Shown: in pieces, positions 44,750 to 53,508 of the stretch
How positions within the stretch are numbered: position 1 is the stretch's first letter
How the letters are laid out: each line of letters opens with the position of its first letter
The notes under the pieces: generated by a model
Told to the model about the DNA's origin: nothing
The model's database searches: none
Seen by the model: only the letters and a program-made list of their open reading frames with translations
NCBI GenBank assembly: GCA_905479105.1
Contig: CAJQLE010000001.1
Coordinates: 485,628-549,627 of the forward strand
DNA length: 64,000 bases
Direction of reading: 5' to 3'
Origin: an uncultured Flavobacteriales bacterium
GTDB taxonomy: Bacteria > Bacteroidota > Bacteroidia > Flavobacteriales_G > Salibacteraceae
Position numbers and translations under genes: made by a program

Positions 44750-45796
44750 TTATTTCGACTTTTCTAGCGTAAACGAGAATGTTGTACCCTTCTCCACAAC
44801 GCTTCTTGCGCTGACGGTTTGTCCATGAGATTCAATGATGTGCTTGCAAATGGCTAAACCAAGTCCTGTTCCACCTTCGTGGCGAGATCTGCTTTTGTCA
44901 ACACGATAGAATCGTTCGAAAAGTCGTGGAACGTGATCTGGGCTAACGCCAATTCCATCATCGGCAACCTCTATCAAGATGTTTTGAGACATGTCAAAAA
45001 AGCGCACTTCACAGTAACCTTCTTCCTTGCCATAATTAATAGCATTCGTCAGAAGATTGGTAAGAACTTGCAAAATCTTGTTCTTATCCGCCTTGACCCA
45101 AATAGGTTTATCATACTTTTTATTAAACCTCAAGTCAATATTCTTTTCAGCCGCTCTGAGCTCAAATAATTTGAATAGCTCTTCAACGAGGTCTATCATA
45201 TTGAACTTCTCCAATTTCAGAACTTCACGACCAGCTTCAAGTTTAGAGATACTATCCAAGTCTTCAACGAGAGCGGTTAGGCGTTCTAAATTTTTATCGG
45301 CTCGTCCTAAATAATCATAGTTAATCTTAGGATCCTCCAATCCTCCTTCCAATAAGGTCAGCAAATAGCCTTGAATATTAAAAATTGGTGTTTTTAATTC
45401 ATGCGCTAAGTTTCCAATAAAGTCTCTTCTGAAACTCGCCTGCTCTTTAAGTGTCTGGATTTCGCTTTGTTGCACATTGGCCCACTCTTCCACATCTTTC
45501 TGCACATCACCCAATATATCGTTGGATTTTGAAACCTCTTTTAATCGCTCATCCATTTTGTCCTTTGAATGAATCGATCTAAATAAGAGTATAATTTTTT
45601 CATGGAGAAAATTCTCCACAGACCACCATGCTAAAAAATAGGTGCTGCTAGCCGTTAATAAAATATACGCAAACCAAAGCCATAATGGAAAGTATTGCCC
45701 CACCAGGAACTGAGCAAGCAGTAAAACTACAATACCTATAAATGTAAGGGCAATCGCAATGAATACTGCGATCTGTTTTGGATTTTCAATTTTCAT
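44750..45796 (-). CDS. phoR: Sensor histidine kinase, PhoR-like
   Basis: A 348-residue membrane kinase. Two membrane helices (about 9-31 and 38-58) with almost no periplasmic loop are followed by a HAMP-like/coiled linker, the HisKA domain (NLAHELKTPIFNIQGYL, phospho-accepting H132) and a HATPase domain (N-box LLTNAINYGKEEG, DDGIGV, GTGLGLAICKHI). The short sensor part with no large periplasmic domain and linkage to a PhoB-like regulator and to a Na/Pi transporter match PhoR in Bacteroidota. No PAS domain was recognised. It starts 29 bp after the regulator gene. Phosphate as the signal is an inference. Confidence 0.88.
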   Translation of the reverse strand: MKIENPKQIAVFIAIALTFIGIVVLLLAQFLVGQYFPLWLWFAYILLTASSTYFLAWWSVENFLHEKIILLFRSIHSKDKMDERLKEVSKSNDILGDVQKDVEEWANVQQSEIQTLKEQASFRRDFIGNLAHELKTPIFNIQGYLLTLLEGGLEDPKINYDYLGRADKNLERLTALVEDLDSISKLEAGREVLKLEKFNMIDLVEELFKLFELRAAEKNIDLRFNKKYDKPIWVKADKNKILQVLTNLLTNAINYGKEEGYCEVRFFDMSQNILIEVADDGIGVSPDHVPRLFERFYRVDKSRSRHEGGTGLGLAICKHIIESHGQTVSARSVVEKGTTFSFTLEKSK

Positions 45797-45825: not shown

Positions 45826-46506
45826 TTAATCCTCAAACTTATACCCAACTCCTTTAATCGTTTTGATATGCGAACTACCAATTTTTTCTCGCAGTTTTCG
45901 AATATGAACATCTATCGTTCTGTCACCAACTACAACATCATCACCCCAAACAGAAGATAAAATACCTTCTCTTGTAAACACCTTGCCCGGAACTGAAATC
46001 AATAATGCCAGCAATTCAAACTCCTTCTTTGGCAGGTTAAGCTCAACATCATCCTTTATGACTACGTATCGATCTCTGTCGATACGTAGAGATTTTAAAT
46101 CCCTAGTGCCCATAGGCATGATGGCTCCTTCCTTTCTGCGCAATAGCGCTTTTATTCTGCTGATTAAAACTCTCGGTTTAATCGGTTTTGAGATGTAGTC
46201 ATCAGCACCGGCATCAAAACCTGCGATTTGCGAATAATCTTCTCCACGCGCGGTGAGAAAAGCAATAACTATATTCTTGGTGTCTGAATTATCTCTAAGC
46301 TGGATACACGTTTCCACACCATCCATTTCAGGCATCATAACATCCAATAGGATAAGGTCTGGCTTCTTTTTTTTCGCAATCTCAATAGCTTCTATACCAT
46401 TATTGGCGGTGTAAACTTTCGCCCCCTCTTTCTCAATGTTATAACTTAAGAATTCGAGGATGTCTTCCTCATCATCTACTACAAGAATTTTAGTCTTTGA
46501 AAGCAT
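45826..46506 (-). CDS. phoB: OmpR/PhoB family response regulator
   Basis: A 226-residue regulator. The receiver domain has the acidic pair D11/D12, phosphorylation site D55 (LILLDVMMPEMDG) and K103-type lysine in YISKPIKP; the C-terminal winged helix ends TIDVHIRKLREKIGSSHIKTI and GVGYKFED, as in PhoB. The start at 46506 is chosen because a -7 box TACATTCG at 46541-46534 sits 27 bp upstream; the alternative start at 46554 would lie upstream of that box. Three TAA half-sites with 11-bp period lie just above the promoter, suggesting autoregulation. It is the first gene of a phoB-phoR (-GSCFA) transcript. Confidence 0.88.
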   Translation of the reverse strand: MLSKTKILVVDDEEDILEFLSYNIEKEGAKVYTANNGIEAIEIAKKKKPDLILLDVMMPEMDGVETCIQLRDNSDTKNIVIAFLTARGEDYSQIAGFDAGADDYISKPIKPRVLISRIKALLRRKEGAIMPMGTRDLKSLRIDRDRYVVIKDDVELNLPKKEFELLALLISVPGKVFTREGILSSVWGDDVVVGDRTIDVHIRKLREKIGSSHIKTIKGVGYKFED

Positions 46507-46533
46507 AAGTTCAGTTTTGTCTGAGTTGTGCTT

Positions 46534-46588
46534 CGAATGTAGATTGGTAGACATGATGACAATTTATGTTAGCGTTATGAAAAGGTTA
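46534..46588 (-). promoter_or_regulatory. phoB promoter with 11-bp spaced TAAC half-sites
   Basis: On the minus strand three 11-bp units start TAAC (46588), TAAC (46577) and TAAA (46566). The -7 box TACATTCG is at 46541-46534, 25 bp below the start of the last unit, and no TTG is found at -33. This is the pattern of an activator-dependent promoter of the PhoB/PhoP type. The half-sites are short, so chance cannot be ruled out from this copy alone. Confidence 0.5.
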
Positions 46589-46712
46589 GACTTATTGCAC
46601 TCGCTCAAAATCTAATTTATTCGAATGTAAACACTTTTAAGCTAACGAGGCTGCACGCCTTACTGCTACTGCAAATTCGAAATAATGAAATTCGGCCAAA
46701 AATCATGAAACA

Positions 46713-46784
46713 TTAACGGAACACTTTCATAACATAGACTTAACCGCAGACTAATCCGCGGATAATCTATTGGCAATTCCTTTG
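46713..46784 (+). promoter_or_regulatory. Four tandem 11-bp Pho-box-like half-sites upstream of the beta-helix lipoprotein
   Basis: Four consecutive 11-bp units begin TAAC (46730), TAAC (46741), TAAT (46752) and TAAT (46763). A -7-like TTCCTTTG lies at 46777-46784, 14 bp after the start of the last unit, and there is no TTG at -33. Another TTAACGG at 46713 is out of register. An 11-bp direct repeat placed over the -33 region is what PhoB and PhoP boxes look like in other phyla. Confidence 0.6.
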
Positions 46785-46805: not shown

Positions 46806-48125
46806 ATGAAAAGAATTTACCTATCCCCAGCAAAAGTAATGGCAGTGATGATGTCATTAGGTTTTGCACTATCTATTTCTTCTTGTAAAAAAGAAGGATG
46901 TACTGATGAAACAGCTACAAACTATGACGACAAAGCCAAAGATGATGATGGCTCTTGCGAGTATCCAGTAGCTCAAGAAGGAGAAGTTACTAAAACTGGT
47001 TCTATTACAGCAAATGAAACATGGACTGCAAACAACATTTACTTTCTTGACGGAAAAGTTGTTGTTGAAGACGGTGCTACTTTAACTATTGAGCCTGGAA
47101 CTATCATTAAAGGTAAGCAAGGACAAGAAGCTGCTGCTTCTGCTCTAATTGTTGCTAAAGGAGGAATGATCATGGCAGAGGGTACTGCGGCTGCACCAAT
47201 CATTTTCACTTCCGAGTTAGACAACATTACTTATGGTGAAAAAAGAGGAACTAACCTTACGAAGACTGACAATGAAAAATGGGGTGGGATTGCTATTTTA
47301 GGTGACGCACCATCTTCTACTGAAAACGGTGATAAAGTTGGAAACCTAGAAGGTATTCCTGCAGACGAAGGATACGGTGAGTACGGTGGAGACAATGCAG
47401 CTGACAATTCAGGTGTATTAAAGTATGTTTCTATTCGCCACGGTGGTATCTCTATCGGTGAAGGAAACGAATTGAACGGTTTAACACTTGCTGGTGTTGG
47501 AAACGGAACAACAATCGAAAACATTGAGATCTACGCTACTCTTGATGATGGTGTTGAGTTCTTTGGAGGTACAGTTAATGCTAAGAACATTTTGGTATTC
47601 TATCAAGGTGATGATGGTATTGACATCGATCAAAACTACTCTGGAACAGTTGATGGTTTTGCTGTAATTCATGGAGATGGTATTGGAACAGACGAAGGAC
47701 TTGAAATCGATGGTCCAGAAGGATCTACTTATACTGATGGTCTTTTCACTTTGAAAAATGGTCTTTGTAAGAACGAAGGATCTGAAGGATCTGCTGCTGA
47801 TTTCAAATCAAAAGCGCAAGGAACAATTCAAAATGTGACGTTCGAATATGGTTCCAAGCCAGTTAAGTTAAGAGCTTCTTTTGATGAAACTTGTGGTGCA
47901 AAATCTGACGCTGCTAAATATGTAGCTGATGATAGATTAGTTTTTGACAACTGCAACATGAGCTCTGTCGAAGTTTATGAGAACGCTGATCCTGCAACTT
48001 GCATTTCTGAAACTGCTGCTGCTCAAACTGCTGCAGAAGCTAAGATTAATGTTAGTGGTTCAGGTGGTTCAGTTAGTCTTTCAACTTGGTCTTGGGGTGC
48101 TGCTGGAAACAACAATGAACTGTAA
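46806..48125 (+). CDS. Right-handed beta-helix lipoprotein, probably phosphate-regulated
   Basis: A 439-residue lipoprotein (lipobox SISSC, C27), with a short Cys- and Asp-rich segment resembling thrombospondin-type calcium-binding repeats (NYDDKAKDDDGSC, 40-52) and then a long parallel beta-helix with repeated IxFxxV and GVExFGGTV turns (about 60-340). Many Asp and Gly residues in the turns suggest calcium. No enzyme motif is present. It sits between the phoBR genes and a TonB-dependent receptor, behind the clearest array of 11-bp half-sites, so surface capture of a phosphate source together with the receptor is inferred. A terminator follows at 48150. Confidence 0.8.
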   Translation: MKRIYLSPAKVMAVMMSLGFALSISSCKKEGCTDETATNYDDKAKDDDGSCEYPVAQEGEVTKTGSITANETWTANNIYFLDGKVVVEDGATLTIEPGTIIKGKQGQEAAASALIVAKGGMIMAEGTAAAPIIFTSELDNITYGEKRGTNLTKTDNEKWGGIAILGDAPSSTENGDKVGNLEGIPADEGYGEYGGDNAADNSGVLKYVSIRHGGISIGEGNELNGLTLAGVGNGTTIENIEIYATLDDGVEFFGGTVNAKNILVFYQGDDGIDIDQNYSGTVDGFAVIHGDGIGTDEGLEIDGPEGSTYTDGLFTLKNGLCKNEGSEGSAADFKSKAQGTIQNVTFEYGSKPVKLRASFDETCGAKSDAAKYVADDRLVFDNCNMSSVEVYENADPATCISETAAAQTAAEAKINVSGSGGSVSLSTWSWGAAGNNNEL

Positions 48126-48212: not shown

Positions 48213-51053
48213 ATGTCAAGAGTTTTATCATTCCTCGTTTTCTGTCTTTTTGCTACGTCTGTTCTAGCCCAAGAAAAAGGCTTCATTAGAGGTAATATTG
48301 CTGATGGTGATTTCGGTGGTCCTATGATTGGAGCTACCGTAACTGTTGATGGAATGCCGGGTGTTGGCGCGTCTACAGATTTTGATGGAAATTTTTCATT
48401 ACCGCTGGCTCCTGGTACTTATGATATCTCGATCTCCTTTATTTCTTATGCTACACAATCATACCCCAAAACAGTAGTAACTTCTGGTAAAGTAACAATG
48501 ATCGATGCTGTATTAAGTTCTGCCATTGAAGAATTAGCAGGAGTGGAAATTGTAGGTGAAGTGAGAAGAAACTCCGAGGTAGCCATGCTCATGGACATGA
48601 AGAACGCATCTACAGTGACGGATGGATTGTCTGCTCAATCATTTCGTAAAATCGGTGACTCTGACCTATCTGGAGCTATCAAGCGTGTAACCGGTGTTAC
48701 GGTTCAAGGTGGTAAATATGTATACGTGAGAGGTCTTGGAGATCGCTACACAAAAACCACGTTAAATGGCATGTCGCTCCCAGGTTTAGATCCTGATGTA
48801 AACGCTGTTCAAATCGACATCTTCCCAACGAATGTTTTGGAAAATGTTTCAGTTTCTAAGACTTTTTCACCTGATTTAGATGGTGACTTTACCGGTGGAC
48901 TGGTCAATGTGGTTACCAAAAACTTCCCTGATAAAAAATCTTCACAGATTGGATTTGGATTAGCGGTAACCCCAGGTATGACTTTTAATCCTGATTACAT
49001 TCTATATAACAGACAAGCAACGGCCTTTACCGGTTTTGATTTCGGAAATAAAGAGCTTCCCTTCAATCCTTATACGAATGAGATTATTCCAGACCCCGTT
49101 CTGAATGATAAGACCCAAGAAGATTTAAGCCGGAGCTTTGACCCTCAAATGGCAGCAAAGAAAAAAACTGCACTTCCTAATGGTTCTTTCTCATTCAGTC
49201 ATGGCAATCAAATCAATAAAGAGAGCGGAGCCACTTTGGGATATAATGCCGTATTCAATTATTCCAATGAAACTGTTTTTTACAAAGATTTTCAATCCAA
49301 CGACTATTTGAGAGATAACAATAAAACGGTCGAACCTCTCTTCCAACAAATCAGACGTATCGGAGATGTTGGGAAAAATAATGTTTTGTGGAGTGGGCTT
49401 CTTTCCGGGGCATACAAGAAAAATAACAATTCATACTCTCTAACTATCTTGAATAGTCAAAGTGCCGAGACATCCGCATCCATCAGAAAGAACCAAGACT
49501 TCAATCAGAATCAAGCGACATTAATTGAGAATATCTTAACCTATAGTCAACGCACGCTGAGCTCCGCTATAGTATCGGGTCAGCATCGCCTCGGAATTGT
49601 AGAATTAAATTGGAGCAATGCACTTTCTTACTCTCGTGTTTACGATCCTGACTTCAGAGAAACTAGAATCTCAATTACAGATGGTGACACTACATTGAGT
49701 ACTGGAAATGGTTCAGGGCTGTTCAGGTTCTGGAGAGACTTAGTCGAATACAATGAATCTTTTAAATTAGATGTGAAAGTTCCTATAGCGGAACGAGCCT
49801 TTATAAAGGTTGGAGGTATTGGCACTTATAAGGCAAGAACTTTTGAAACATTCTCTTATAAGCACACTCGTCAAAACCTAAGTGATATTGATTTTGATCC
49901 AAATTGGTATCTGCAAGAAGAGAATATATGGACTGCTGATGTTGAAAACCCAAACAATGAAGCGGGTACATATACAATAGGAACTTTTCAGCCTGCGAAC
50001 TCTTATGACGCCAGACAGGATTTAATTACCGGTTACTTATTGGTAAACCACTCACTATTCAACTTCATCAAGTTGATCTATGGAGCACGCGTTGAAAGAA
50101 CCAACATGTATTACACCGGAACAAACAATTCTGGATCTGTGGTATACAATGATTCATTGGTTTTGAATGAATTAAACTTGCTTCCTTCGATAAACGCTGT
50201 GTTCAGTTTAGGGAAGAAAATGAATCTGCGAGCTGGCGCTAATAGAACATTGGCAAGACCATCATTTAAGGAAAAATCTATCGCACAGATCTACGATCCA
50301 ATTACCAAAAGAACATTCACGGGTAATATTGACCTTCAGCAAACCATGGTCAACAACTTTGACTTACGATACGAATACTTCATTAGTTCAAAAGAACTCT
50401 TCTCTGTTAGTGCGTTCTACAAGCAGTTTGACGGCCACATCGAATTGGTTTCTTTTGCAACAGCTCCAGACAACCTTAAGCCACGAAACTCAGGATTAGC
50501 AGAAGTTTATGGTGTGGAAATAGAATTAAGAAAAGCCATACCTGGAGTAGAGTCAGGATTCTTCAGCCGCCTATTTTTGAGTACAAACGTTTCTTTAGTT
50601 GAATCTAGAGTTGACATGAATACTGTGCTGGTCGATAATTCTGGCACAACTGAACGCGAGCTGCGAGAGAACAATCTTCGAACCAATGAAACTCTTAGTC
50701 AGTTCAGACCAATGTCTGGTCAGTCTCCTTATGCTGTCAATTTTGCGCTTTCATATGAAGACATTGAAAGACAAGCAAATGTGAGTCTTGCCTATAACGT
50801 GCAAGGTGAACAACTTACAATTATCGCGTCTGGTCGTGTTCCAGACATATACACGATTCCTTTCAATAGCTTAAACTTTAATGCTTACAAGAGTTTCGGT
50901 GACGACTTTCAACACCGCTTAACATTTGGATTGAATAATATCATGAACGATGACAGAACGCTTGTTTACAGGTCATACGGGTCAGAAGATGGCATTTACA
51001 CAAGTTACAAGCCAGGAGTTGGCGTAAGTTTAAAATACAACTACACTTTCTAA
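48213..51053 (+). CDS. TonB-dependent receptor with carboxypeptidase regulatory-like domain
   Basis: A 946-residue outer-membrane receptor. Signal peptide (1-19, ending VLAQ), a carboxypeptidase-D regulatory-like domain (about 23-105, with GATVTVDGMPGVGASTDFDG), plug domain (about 125-240, with SGAIKRVTGVTVQGGKYVYV and VRGLGDRYTKTTLNGMSLPG) and a 22-strand barrel ending in a terminal aromatic (KYNYTF). No SusD-like partner follows, so it is not a typical glycan-uptake pair. Its neighbours point to uptake of phosphate or a phosphorylated compound. Powered by TonB, possibly through the ExbB/ExbD set at the start of the window. Confidence 0.93.
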   Translation: MSRVLSFLVFCLFATSVLAQEKGFIRGNIADGDFGGPMIGATVTVDGMPGVGASTDFDGNFSLPLAPGTYDISISFISYATQSYPKTVVTSGKVTMIDAVLSSAIEELAGVEIVGEVRRNSEVAMLMDMKNASTVTDGLSAQSFRKIGDSDLSGAIKRVTGVTVQGGKYVYVRGLGDRYTKTTLNGMSLPGLDPDVNAVQIDIFPTNVLENVSVSKTFSPDLDGDFTGGLVNVVTKNFPDKKSSQIGFGLAVTPGMTFNPDYILYNRQATAFTGFDFGNKELPFNPYTNEIIPDPVLNDKTQEDLSRSFDPQMAAKKKTALPNGSFSFSHGNQINKESGATLGYNAVFNYSNETVFYKDFQSNDYLRDNNKTVEPLFQQIRRIGDVGKNNVLWSGLLSGAYKKNNNSYSLTILNSQSAETSASIRKNQDFNQNQATLIENILTYSQRTLSSAIVSGQHRLGIVELNWSNALSYSRVYDPDFRETRISITDGDTTLSTGNGSGLFRFWRDLVEYNESFKLDVKVPIAERAFIKVGGIGTYKARTFETFSYKHTRQNLSDIDFDPNWYLQEENIWTADVENPNNEAGTYTIGTFQPANSYDARQDLITGYLLVNHSLFNFIKLIYGARVERTNMYYTGTNNSGSVVYNDSLVLNELNLLPSINAVFSLGKKMNLRAGANRTLARPSFKEKSIAQIYDPITKRTFTGNIDLQQTMVNNFDLRYEYFISSKELFSVSAFYKQFDGHIELVSFATAPDNLKPRNSGLAEVYGVEIELRKAIPGVESGFFSRLFLSTNVSLVESRVDMNTVLVDNSGTTERELRENNLRTNETLSQFRPMSGQSPYAVNFALSYEDIERQANVSLAYNVQGEQLTIIASGRVPDIYTIPFNSLNFNAYKSFGDDFQHRLTFGLNNIMNDDRTLVYRSYGSEDGIYTSYKPGVGVSLKYNYTF

Positions 51054-51119: not shown

Positions 51120-51425
51120 CTAATCCTTTTCAGCGATAACAACCGGTGCAGAAGCATTTCCGACCATTGGATTATTAAATGATCCATAATCAACTACCTG
51201 TCCATTATCAAAACGAGCGTAAGTAGTAACTGAGTTTAATGTTCTTTCTTGGTATACTTTAACAAGTTCATTGCTGTAGACAACAAAAACATCAGCTCCT
51301 AAAGCATCAGTTCCTTGAACCTTGATCTCTCCATTTTCAAGTCGCGTAAGCTCTACATCCTGCGTAGACTGAGCTATCACAGCATTTACGCCTAACATTA
51401 ACATTATTGCAATTACATATTTCAT
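51120..51425 (-). CDS. Small secreted protein of unknown function
   Basis: A 101-residue protein with signal peptide (1-18, ending AVIAQ) and a short beta-rich mature part (VELTRLENGEIKVQGTD). I do not recognise a family. It is unusual in having a strong Shine-Dalgarno AGGAGG (51436-51431) 5 nt before the ATG, which is rare in this phylum, and in lying behind four 11-bp-spaced TAAC-type half-sites. It lies between the receptor and the Na/Pi transporter and may belong to the phosphate response. Confidence 0.75.
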   Translation of the reverse strand: MKYVIAIMLMLGVNAVIAQSTQDVELTRLENGEIKVQGTDALGADVFVVYSNELVKVYQERTLNSVTTYARFDNGQVVDYGSFNNPMVGNASAPVVIAEKD

Positions 51426-51430
51426 AACGA

Positions 51431-51510
51431 CCTCCTCTTTAATTCAACGTAAAGTTAACTATTTATTCGTTCAATGTTACGCCAATGTTAACTTAATTGT
51501 CTCAATGTTA
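51431..51510 (-). promoter_or_regulatory. Pho-box-like array and strong Shine-Dalgarno upstream of the small secreted protein
   Basis: Read on the minus strand, 11-bp units begin TAAC (51490), TAAC (51479), GAAT (51468) and TAAC (51457); the first two share TAACATTG. A further TAAC at 51510 is out of register. A -7-like TACGTTG lies at 51451-51445. The Shine-Dalgarno AGGAGG is at 51436-51431. The first two units (TTAACA-N5-GTAACA) fit a PhoP-type box closely. Confidence 0.55.
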
Positions 51511-51810: not shown

Positions 51811-53508
51811 ATGGAAGAAACCTTTGGAGTATTTGAAACATTACGGCTGATAGGATCACTTGGCCTTTTCATTTATGGAATGAAAATAATGAGCGATGGC
51901 ATCCAAAAGGTTGCAGGGAATCGCATGCGAGAAGTATTGGGTTCAATGACTTCTAATAGGTTTACGGGAGTGTTTACTGGCTTTCTCACGACCGCCTTGA
52001 TTCAATCTAGTTCTGCTACAACAGTGATGATCGTAAGTTTCGTTAACGCAGGTCTGTTAACCTTGCGCCAGGCTATTGGTGTAATAATGGGAGCCAATAT
52101 TGGAACAACCATTACAGCCGTACTCATCTTGATATTTGGCTTTTCCAAGTTCAGCATATCAGATTATGCCCTTCCTCTTATAGCGATCGGGTTTCCTTTG
52201 TTATTTCTTAAGAATACGCAGCTCAAATCAGCAGGAGAAACCCTGATAGGCTTTAGTATCCTGTTTATGGGTCTTGATTTTCTTAAGGACAGTGTTCCTC
52301 AAATCAGCCATAGTCAGTTAGAATATCTTATTGGACTTACCGAATATGGCATCTGGTCTACTATTCTTTTCGTATTAATAGGTAGTGTCTTAACCATTGT
52401 TGTTCAATCGTCAAGTGCCGCTATGGCACTAACAATCATTATGTGTGAGCGTGGGATGCCGCTGGATATGGCTGCAGCAATTGTATTGGGAGAAAACATT
52501 GGAACAACTATAACCGCGAATTTGGCAGCAATCATTGGCAATGTACACGCAAAACGTGCCGCCCGGGCGCATCTCATTTTCAACCTAATAGGTGTGGGAT
52601 GGATGTTATTGGTGTTTCCATTATTCCTGTCGGGTATCAACTCCTATATGGAGACGACTTCTATTGGCATGCCCTCGGCCGAAAACAGTCAAGCCACAAA
52701 ATGGGCCCTTACTCTCTTTCACATGTCATTTAACATTGTTAATGTTACCCTCCTCATTGGATTCTTAGGAACCATAGCACAAGTTGTAACGAAAATGGTG
52801 CCGAGTAAGTCCGAAGAAGACGAACAATTCTCTCTCGAATATATCGGGGCTGGAATAATGAGCACTCCAGAGCTTTCTTTAATTGAAGCCCAAAAGGAAA
52901 TGGTAAAGTTTAGTCAAGTAACATATCGAATGCTTGGCTTTTTGAAGGAGTTGTTATTCGAAAAAGAAAAGAAAGAGCAGCGCATAAAAATCGAACGAAT
53001 AGAAAAATATGAGCAAATCACCGATAAAATAGAAGTTGAGGTATCTGACTATTTGATGACAGTATTGCAAGGTGAGTTGAGTGGTGAATCAAGTAAACGT
53101 ATTCGAAGTATGCTCGATATAGCAAGCGTAATGGAGCAGATTGCAGACGTTTTCTTTCAAATGTCATTGACCTATGACAGAAAAATCGATTCAAAATCGT
53201 GGTTTACTCTTGAGCAAAGAAGAAGCTTATTAGAAATGTATGATTTGATCGATCTCGTCTTTGAAAATATGATGATCAACCTTGAAAATAAGTACGATGA
53301 TATCGACTTAGAAAAAGCAGAAACCTTAGAGTATCAAGTTAATCGCTTACGCGATAGAATCCGGAAAGAGCATTTAGACAACATGGGTAAATCGGATTAC
53401 AATATTGACAGTGGAATGATTTATAACGACCTATACTCGTCATTAGAAAAAGTTGGAAATCACTTGCTCGAAATCAATGAAGCTATCGCTGGAAAGGTCG
53501 TGAGTTAA
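51811..53508 (+). CDS. Na/Pi cotransporter family protein with PhoU-like domain
   Basis: A 565-residue protein. Residues 1-340 are the NptA-type Na/Pi cotransporter with its two inverted QSSSA repeats (IQSSSATTVMIVSFVNAG and VQSSSAAMALTIIMCERG), each followed by GANIGTTIT or GENIGTTIT. Residues about 360-565 are a charged, helical PhoU-like domain (LFEKEKKEQRIKIERIEKYE). It should import phosphate with sodium, the PhoU part acting on the cytoplasmic side as a regulator. It lies at the end of the phosphate-response island. The ATG at 51811 fits the family start. Confidence 0.92.
   Translation: MEETFGVFETLRLIGSLGLFIYGMKIMSDGIQKVAGNRMREVLGSMTSNRFTGVFTGFLTTALIQSSSATTVMIVSFVNAGLLTLRQAIGVIMGANIGTTITAVLILIFGFSKFSISDYALPLIAIGFPLLFLKNTQLKSAGETLIGFSILFMGLDFLKDSVPQISHSQLEYLIGLTEYGIWSTILFVLIGSVLTIVVQSSSAAMALTIIMCERGMPLDMAAAIVLGENIGTTITANLAAIIGNVHAKRAARAHLIFNLIGVGWMLLVFPLFLSGINSYMETTSIGMPSAENSQATKWALTLFHMSFNIVNVTLLIGFLGTIAQVVTKMVPSKSEEDEQFSLEYIGAGIMSTPELSLIEAQKEMVKFSQVTYRMLGFLKELLFEKEKKEQRIKIERIEKYEQITDKIEVEVSDYLMTVLQGELSGESSKRIRSMLDIASVMEQIADVFFQMSLTYDRKIDSKSWFTLEQRRSLLEMYDLIDLVFENMMINLENKYDDIDLEKAETLEYQVNRLRDRIRKEHLDNMGKSDYNIDSGMIYNDLYSSLEKVGNHLLEINEAIAGKVVS

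Follow-up and report, generated by a model that had tools for sequence, protein, structure and literature searches.

Short TAAC-type repeats with an 11-bp period lie on both strands of the region between a phoB gene and a divergent lipoprotein gene in the window (the whole 64,000-nucleotide stretch of DNA analysed here), and they raise the question of whether PhoB of Bacteroidota recognises a Pho box of this form and whether it controls its own gene through it. The original prediction was that this PhoB uses tandem TAAC-type half-sites and autoregulates. Re-reading of the sequence confirmed the coordinates of both arrays and the distances from the start of the last unit to a -7-like box, which are 14 bp to TTCCTTTG in the lipoprotein promoter and 25 bp to TACATTCG in the direction of phoB. 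The reference for both boxes is TAnnTTTG, the flavobacterial -7 box (PMC9723704). A third array was found upstream of the gene for a 101-aa protein (Table 1). Judged from sequence, the arrays are very probably Pho boxes, made up of TAAC half-sites that recur head-to-tail every 11 bp and would be read by phosphorylated PhoB. They would then represent a conserved, widespread Pho box of Bacteroidia, an operator of a kind already known elsewhere.

Table 1. Arrays, -7 boxes and genes at the phoB locus (positions in the window)
Feature	Positions	Strand	Remarks
Putative Pho-box array, lipoprotein promoter	46730..46766	+	TAAC, TAAC, TAAT, TAAT; 11-bp period; starts 46730, 46741, 46752, 46763
Lipoprotein -7 box TTCCTTTG	46777..46784	+	One mismatch to flavobacterial TAnnTTTG
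phoB-facing array	46563..46588	-	TAAC, TAAC, TAAA; 11-bp period; starts 46588, 46577, 46566
Candidate phoB -7 box TACATTCG	46534..46541	-	One mismatch; inside probable N-terminal coding extension of PhoB
Third array	51454..51490	-	TAAC at 51490, 51479, 51457 (0, +11, +33); before 101-aa protein gene
phoR-like histidine kinase	44750..45796	-	Pfam
phoB, response regulator	45826..46554	-	Receiver + Trans_reg_C; Pfam
Lipoprotein	46806..48125	+	
TonB-dependent receptor	48213..51053	+	87 bp downstream of lipoprotein gene
101-aa protein	51120..51425	-	Signal-peptide-like start
Na+/Pi cotransporter	51811..53508	+	With PhoU domain

Gene starts and neighbours were assigned by simple ORF rules. The lipoprotein, for which 'beta-helix' is the label of the original prediction, gave no Pfam match and no PDB sequence match, and its gene and that of the TonB-dependent receptor probably form one operon. 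A lipoprotein relative and a TonB receptor were both present within the 4-kb flanks of 24 of 80 phoB loci of other Bacteroidota. Profile searches of the window's genome with TIGR00975 (PstS) and PF00245 (alkaline phosphatase) gave no match, and in this genome the link between the arrays and phosphate genes consists of the phoB-linked transport cluster only.

The rarity of the arrays was assessed in the genome and in shuffled DNA. Four TAAY units at 11 bp have a single match on both strands of the 2,787,496-base genome, namely the lipoprotein array, and the reversed control has none. When the 251-bp intergenic region was subjected to 5000 dinucleotide shuffles, four TAAY at 11 bp were never obtained, four at any one spacing of 5–20 bp were obtained in three shuffles, three TAAY at 11 bp in five and a TAAC pair at 11 bp in 65, with pairs on both strands in none. 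Shorter forms of the motif behaved differently in the genome: three TAAY at 11 bp were not enriched genome-wide, with seven matches (two within the lipoprotein array) versus 14 for the reversed control, and the bare TAAC pair is unspecific, as 54 such pairs are present. Half of these pairs (27/54) lie outside ORFs of at least 130 aa, 17 of the 27 with an ORF start at most 320 bp away, and three of the 54 fall within about 5 kb at the phoB locus. Pfam analysis of ten of the ORFs behind those 17 pairs recognised no classical phosphate gene. For the bare pair, reversing the pattern appeared to give a poor control (54 versus 275), as TAAC includes a stop codon that its reverse lacks; its place was taken by shuffles and a wrong-phase pattern. 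The genome-wide scan that had been proposed would have failed with the bare motif, and works only when the promoter phase is added to the pattern.

Conservation was examined in relatives, the window's own locus being excluded from the counts. After removal of three of the 80 phoB loci with less than 200 bp upstream, the remaining 77 phoB-upstream regions of other Bacteroidota contained 51 same-strand TAAC pairs at 11 bp, against a mean of 1.64 and a maximum of five in 50 shuffles; the pair is present in 40 of the regions and absent from 37. Pairs at other spacings were seen at 33 bp (28), 19 bp (14), 22 bp (13), 30 bp (9) and 39 bp (6), with 0–5 at each remaining spacing from 5 to 40 bp. The 19-bp peak, which comes from the same phoB-upstream regions (L002–L081), is out of phase with 11 and is unexplained. 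Upstream of the lipoprotein in 29 relatives, 28 pairs at 11 bp were found in 19 regions (shuffle mean 0.38). The consensus at the pairs is TAACATTaa...TAACAT with a weak third unit at +22 and, as the pairs were picked by TAAC, only its flanking bases are independent; around the pairs it is thus of the TAACATT type, and no E. coli-type CTGTCAT-like half-site was seen there.

In six sequences of the genus, the window's own included, hand counts gave four TAAY units in the lipoprotein array of four and three units in that of two, with a distance of 51 bp between the first TAAC and TTTGC in every one of the six. The same 51 bp separates the first TAAC from the start of TTTGC in the window and is one of the distances preferred in relatives. 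The array is therefore kept in orthologous promoters, upstream of phoB and of the lipoprotein and within the genus, which was the property on which the original prediction had been made to depend. Upstream of homologues of the 101-aa protein, the 11-bp pair was found in 10 of 10 regions, which come from nine other genomes of the family, and these 10 regions also contain nine TAAC pairs at 33 bp. The homologues are only 31–89% identical, yet the upstream pair has been kept. This array is the best conserved of the locus, and one relative (G011) has two copies of the gene.

The position of the repeats relative to the promoter was also found to be constrained. For 68 dimers in the upstream regions of relatives, 41 TTTGC boxes were located 15–110 bp from the dimer start and 29 of the 41 lie at 7 mod 11, mainly at 40 bp (11), 51 bp (5) and 73 bp (10), in a count that treats related and overlapping dimers as separate. 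The argument that both arrays sit on the same face of the helix, originally drawn from the 11-bp difference between the two promoters of the window, thus holds generally. A scan of 396 Bacteroidia genomes found dimer-N25-TTTGC in 150 and dimer-N36-TTTGC in 180, and the wrong-phase pattern dimer-N30-TTTGC in 57. The motif with an in-phase -7 box is therefore commoner than its wrong-phase counterpart, which answers the concern that it might be equally frequent at random positions. In the window's genome N25 and N30 are absent, and N36 occurs once, at what must be the lipoprotein promoter given the fit of the sequence. Among 30 listed loci for each pattern, the sites outside ORFs of at least 100 aa numbered 23 for N25, 27 for N36 and four for N30.

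The genes downstream of the listed sites were then identified. A phosphate gene follows 14 of the 30 N25 loci (21 of 22 downstream ORFs were submitted to Pfam, L315, inside an ORF, being left out), and these comprise 10 O/P-kind porins (five by Pfam and five by blastp to one of those), two PstS-like proteins, one PHO4 transporter and one PhoB orthologue (63.5% identical). For N36 the figure is 18 of 30, made up of nine porins, three PstS-like proteins, one purple-acid-phosphatase-like protein and five PstC-like permeases, four of which (L357, L359, L360 and L363) were labelled by likeness to the one that was scanned (L356). Five sites are common to the two sets of listed loci. For N36 and for the per-family sets described below, 20 chosen ORFs were submitted to Pfam and the other labels came from blastp with references partly taken from the N25 set. 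The N30 control had a phosphate gene downstream in none of its 30 listed loci (10 of 11 downstream ORFs submitted to Pfam; L329, with the leading sequence and length of L324, was left out). Fisher p values against this control were 1.7e-5 for N25 and 1.9e-7 for N36, but they overstate independence because L294–L303 and L354–L363 come from one genus.

When only the first match of each further family among the matches listed was taken, strictly defined phosphate genes were found downstream of two of 20 N25 sites (PHO4, porin) and nine of 25 N36 sites (four PHO4, two PhoB, two lipoprotein relatives and one porin), a total of 11/45 versus 0/30 in the control (p 0.002); five more sites in each set precede genes for TonB receptors or outer-membrane barrels. 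Some in-phase sites precede genes without a phosphate link, such as those for a transketolase (L301), an HlyD protein (L311), a GH3 protein (L396) and an MnmA-like protein (L401), and these, like sites inside ORFs, are as expected if part of the matches are due to chance. In family f10, represented by one genus, all seven sites that were read (L426 and L429–L434) precede TonB-receptor genes, and several of the matched strings there have a further TAAC at +33. A different pattern, with units at 0/11/33/44, was found in 12 of 296 genomes, with several matches in repeat-rich G084 and G079 and similar numbers for the controls, and was discarded.

The enrichment before phosphate genes that had been anticipated was thus found at the level of the class, while the upstream regions of individual gene types gave weak results, with an 11-bp pair in six of 30 PstS-like regions and in three of 29 alkaline-phosphatase regions (30 less L227, which is below the cut-off). 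Coding controls from the same PstS-like and alkaline-phosphatase loci contained no pair at 11 bp. The traits of a Pho box that emerge from the computation are 11-bp direct repeats, a fixed position upstream of the -7 box and, at the class level, phosphate-uptake genes downstream. With the array conserved in relatives, and with its in-phase form commoner than the wrong-phase control and placed before phosphate genes, the proposal that tandem TAAC-type half-sites form a Pho box is supported, with PhoB as the presumed binding protein. An origin of the arrays by chance, in intergenic DNA rich in AT, is hardly credible. It is true that neither bare pairs nor three-unit TAAY arrays are rare in the genome, but the four-unit array is missing from all of the shuffles, spacing and phase form peaks in relatives, the arrays are conserved in the genus and among homologues, and chance does not predict the gap between in-phase and wrong-phase patterns in either genome counts or downstream phosphate genes.

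A second alternative, that the arrays are read not by PhoB but by another response regulator of the OmpR/PhoB family, for example an ArcA-like one, is improbable. It would accommodate the 37 of 77 phoB-upstream regions that have no 11-bp pair, the fact that the DNA-binding fold of the window's PhoB is common to many regulators, and the DAP-seq motif of Riemerella anatipestifer PhoP, in which TTTAACA is most conserved and which its authors find most similar to that of E. coli ArcA (PMC9603813). However, the in-phase arrays were collected regardless of gene function and nevertheless precede phosphate genes at the frequencies given above, and PhoB orthologues (L313, L410 and L421) are among the genes behind them.

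If the arrays are Pho boxes, PhoR would phosphorylate PhoB at low phosphate, and PhoB molecules would line up on the tandem TAAC units. The units nearest to the promoter would cover the -33 position, so that bound PhoB might replace the missing -33 element and recruit RNA polymerase to the TAnnTTTG-type -7 box. The targets activated in this way in the window would be the lipoprotein/TonB-receptor operon, the 101-aa protein and, perhaps, phoB.

For phoB the evidence is divided. In the 77 phoB-upstream regions the pair faces away from phoB in 37 and towards it in six, three having both. By a simple ORF rule, the away-facing pair was found in 27 of 44 regions with a divergent neighbour and in four of 20 with a co-directional neighbour. 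In the family, nine of 29 relatives have a phoB-facing 11-bp TAAC pair, and the phoB-facing array is retained across much of the genus, with its units, by hand count, in phase with the box at the TACATTCG position in several relatives. This box, originally taken as the -7 box of the phoB promoter, lies inside probable coding sequence. An in-frame ATG matching that of phoB at 46554 was detected by script in 11 of the 12 genus loci and recognised by eye in the remaining one (L275), and codon position 3 is the most variable in the PhoB extension (1.04 bits versus 0.78 and 0.62), in an alignment that included only rows with the ATG at the expected place, so that the ATG is fixed by construction, and from which L270 (6-nt insertion) and L275 were dropped. 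As the ATG is shared and third codon positions vary most, TACATTCG is probably coding. The codons over it are nearly fixed in the genus (CTA in 9/11, CAT in 9/11 and TCG in 10/11) and neighbouring codons vary, and it is possible that a promoter element overlaps the PhoB coding sequence here in a dual use. The three codons form an LHS motif in the N-terminal extension, which occupies 46503–46554 on the minus strand of the window.

It may therefore be, and this is a serious though not the favoured possibility, that phoB is expressed from a promoter further upstream, and that the array facing it does not belong to an autoregulatory promoter but is incidental or serves another role. Such an arrangement would fit the probable coding nature of TACATTCG, the TTTACATTCGA-like block found further upstream of phoB in several relatives, the small number of phoB-facing pairs and the report that in cyanobacteria autoregulation is no general rule (PMC1906773). 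It does not readily account for nearly fixed codons amid variable neighbours, for in-phase units kept in several relatives, for the in-phase arrays before three PhoB orthologues elsewhere (L313, L410 and L421) or for the rise of Flavobacterium johnsoniae phoB at low phosphate (PMC8115612). Autoregulation by PhoB, the second part of the original prediction, is thus moderately supported, by the array kept in the genus and by the three orthologues, and is weakened by the ratio of 37 to 6 and by the probable coding position of the box.

Response regulators of the OmpR/PhoB family generally bind tandem sites of 10–11 bp, and the PhoP box of Bacillus subtilis is built of direct repeats of 11 bp around a core resembling TTAACA. 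The latter belongs to another phylum and another promoter type. The E. coli Pho box has two 11-nt direct repeat units with CTGTCAT and is bound head-to-tail, and the Bacillus PhoP box is described as having similar features (PMC4415409). The DNA-binding domains of E. coli PhoB and the window's PhoB are related and both boxes have 11-bp direct repeats, but E. coli uses CTGTCAT rather than TAAC and a sigma70 -10 box instead of TAnnTTTG. The cyanobacterial SphR box, tandem CTTAACCT with 8-bp units and 3-bp linkers, shares the 11-bp period and the TTAAC core, but at least three repeats are reported to be needed (PMC1906773), the promoter type is different, and TAAC is followed by CT in the SphR consensus and by AT in the Bacteroidota pairs.

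Within Bacteroidota, R. anatipestifer PhoP offers a parallel in motif and sensor. Its sensor is PhoR, TTTAACA contains TTAAC, and it binds its own promoter region in EMSA, but the available text states no 11-bp register, -7-box phase or link to a phosphate regulon (PMC9603813). In F. johnsoniae, PUSIV combines phoBR with a TonB receptor (Fjoh_0545) and a related kind of lipoprotein (FII, Fjoh_0546) in a cluster of similar make-up that, phoB included, is strongly induced on phosphate depletion, but no motif is given, 'motif' and 'pho box' each occurring 0 times in the main text (PMC8115612). Bacteroides fragilis PhoB (BF1576) shifts a pstC promoter fragment of 512 bp, and the mutant has almost no pstC expression; a table lists pst genes and a phosphate/sulphate permease with large negative values, the meaning of the column not being given in the portion available, and the box sequence is not defined there ('consensus', 'motif' and 'ttaac' 0 times) (PMC3547664). 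The findings in these three species count in favour of the Pho-box reading.

The half-site TTTAACA has thus already been published for one flavobacterium (PMC9603813), and the promoter register for the phylum was found unstated in the literature searched, which lay mostly outside subscription journals and yielded no paper that describes, for Bacteroidota, a Pho box of TAAC units at 11 bp in phase with the promoter. There is an even chance that one architecture serves the phosphate regulon in much of Bacteroidia, with TAAC every 11 bp, a dimer 40, 51 or 73 bp before TTTGC and PhoB acting as the -33 element, and that the TTAAC core seen in cyanobacteria and Bacillus may be ancestral and CTGTCAT derived. 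PhoB is important to the way in which Bacteroidota of soil and gut scavenge phosphate, and if phosphate promoters can be found from sequence alone, the regulon becomes predictable in many genomes and exact mutations can be proposed for testing. The pattern also connects phosphate starvation with an uncharacterised lipoprotein, the TonB receptor that goes with it and an apparently secreted protein of 101 aa.

Two further sites were observed. At L095 (G000:C1:407627–407652, + strand), TAAT, TAAC, TAAC at 11 bp precede a gene for a VTT-domain (DedA-like) protein; the dedA promoter is among the PhoP-bound promoters in R. anatipestifer (PMC9603813). At L105 (G000:C2:25574–25588, - strand), a TAACATT...TAAC pair is found 33 bp upstream of the start of a gene identified by Pfam as bacteriorhodopsin-like, which possibly reflects a link between phosphate and light, or chance.
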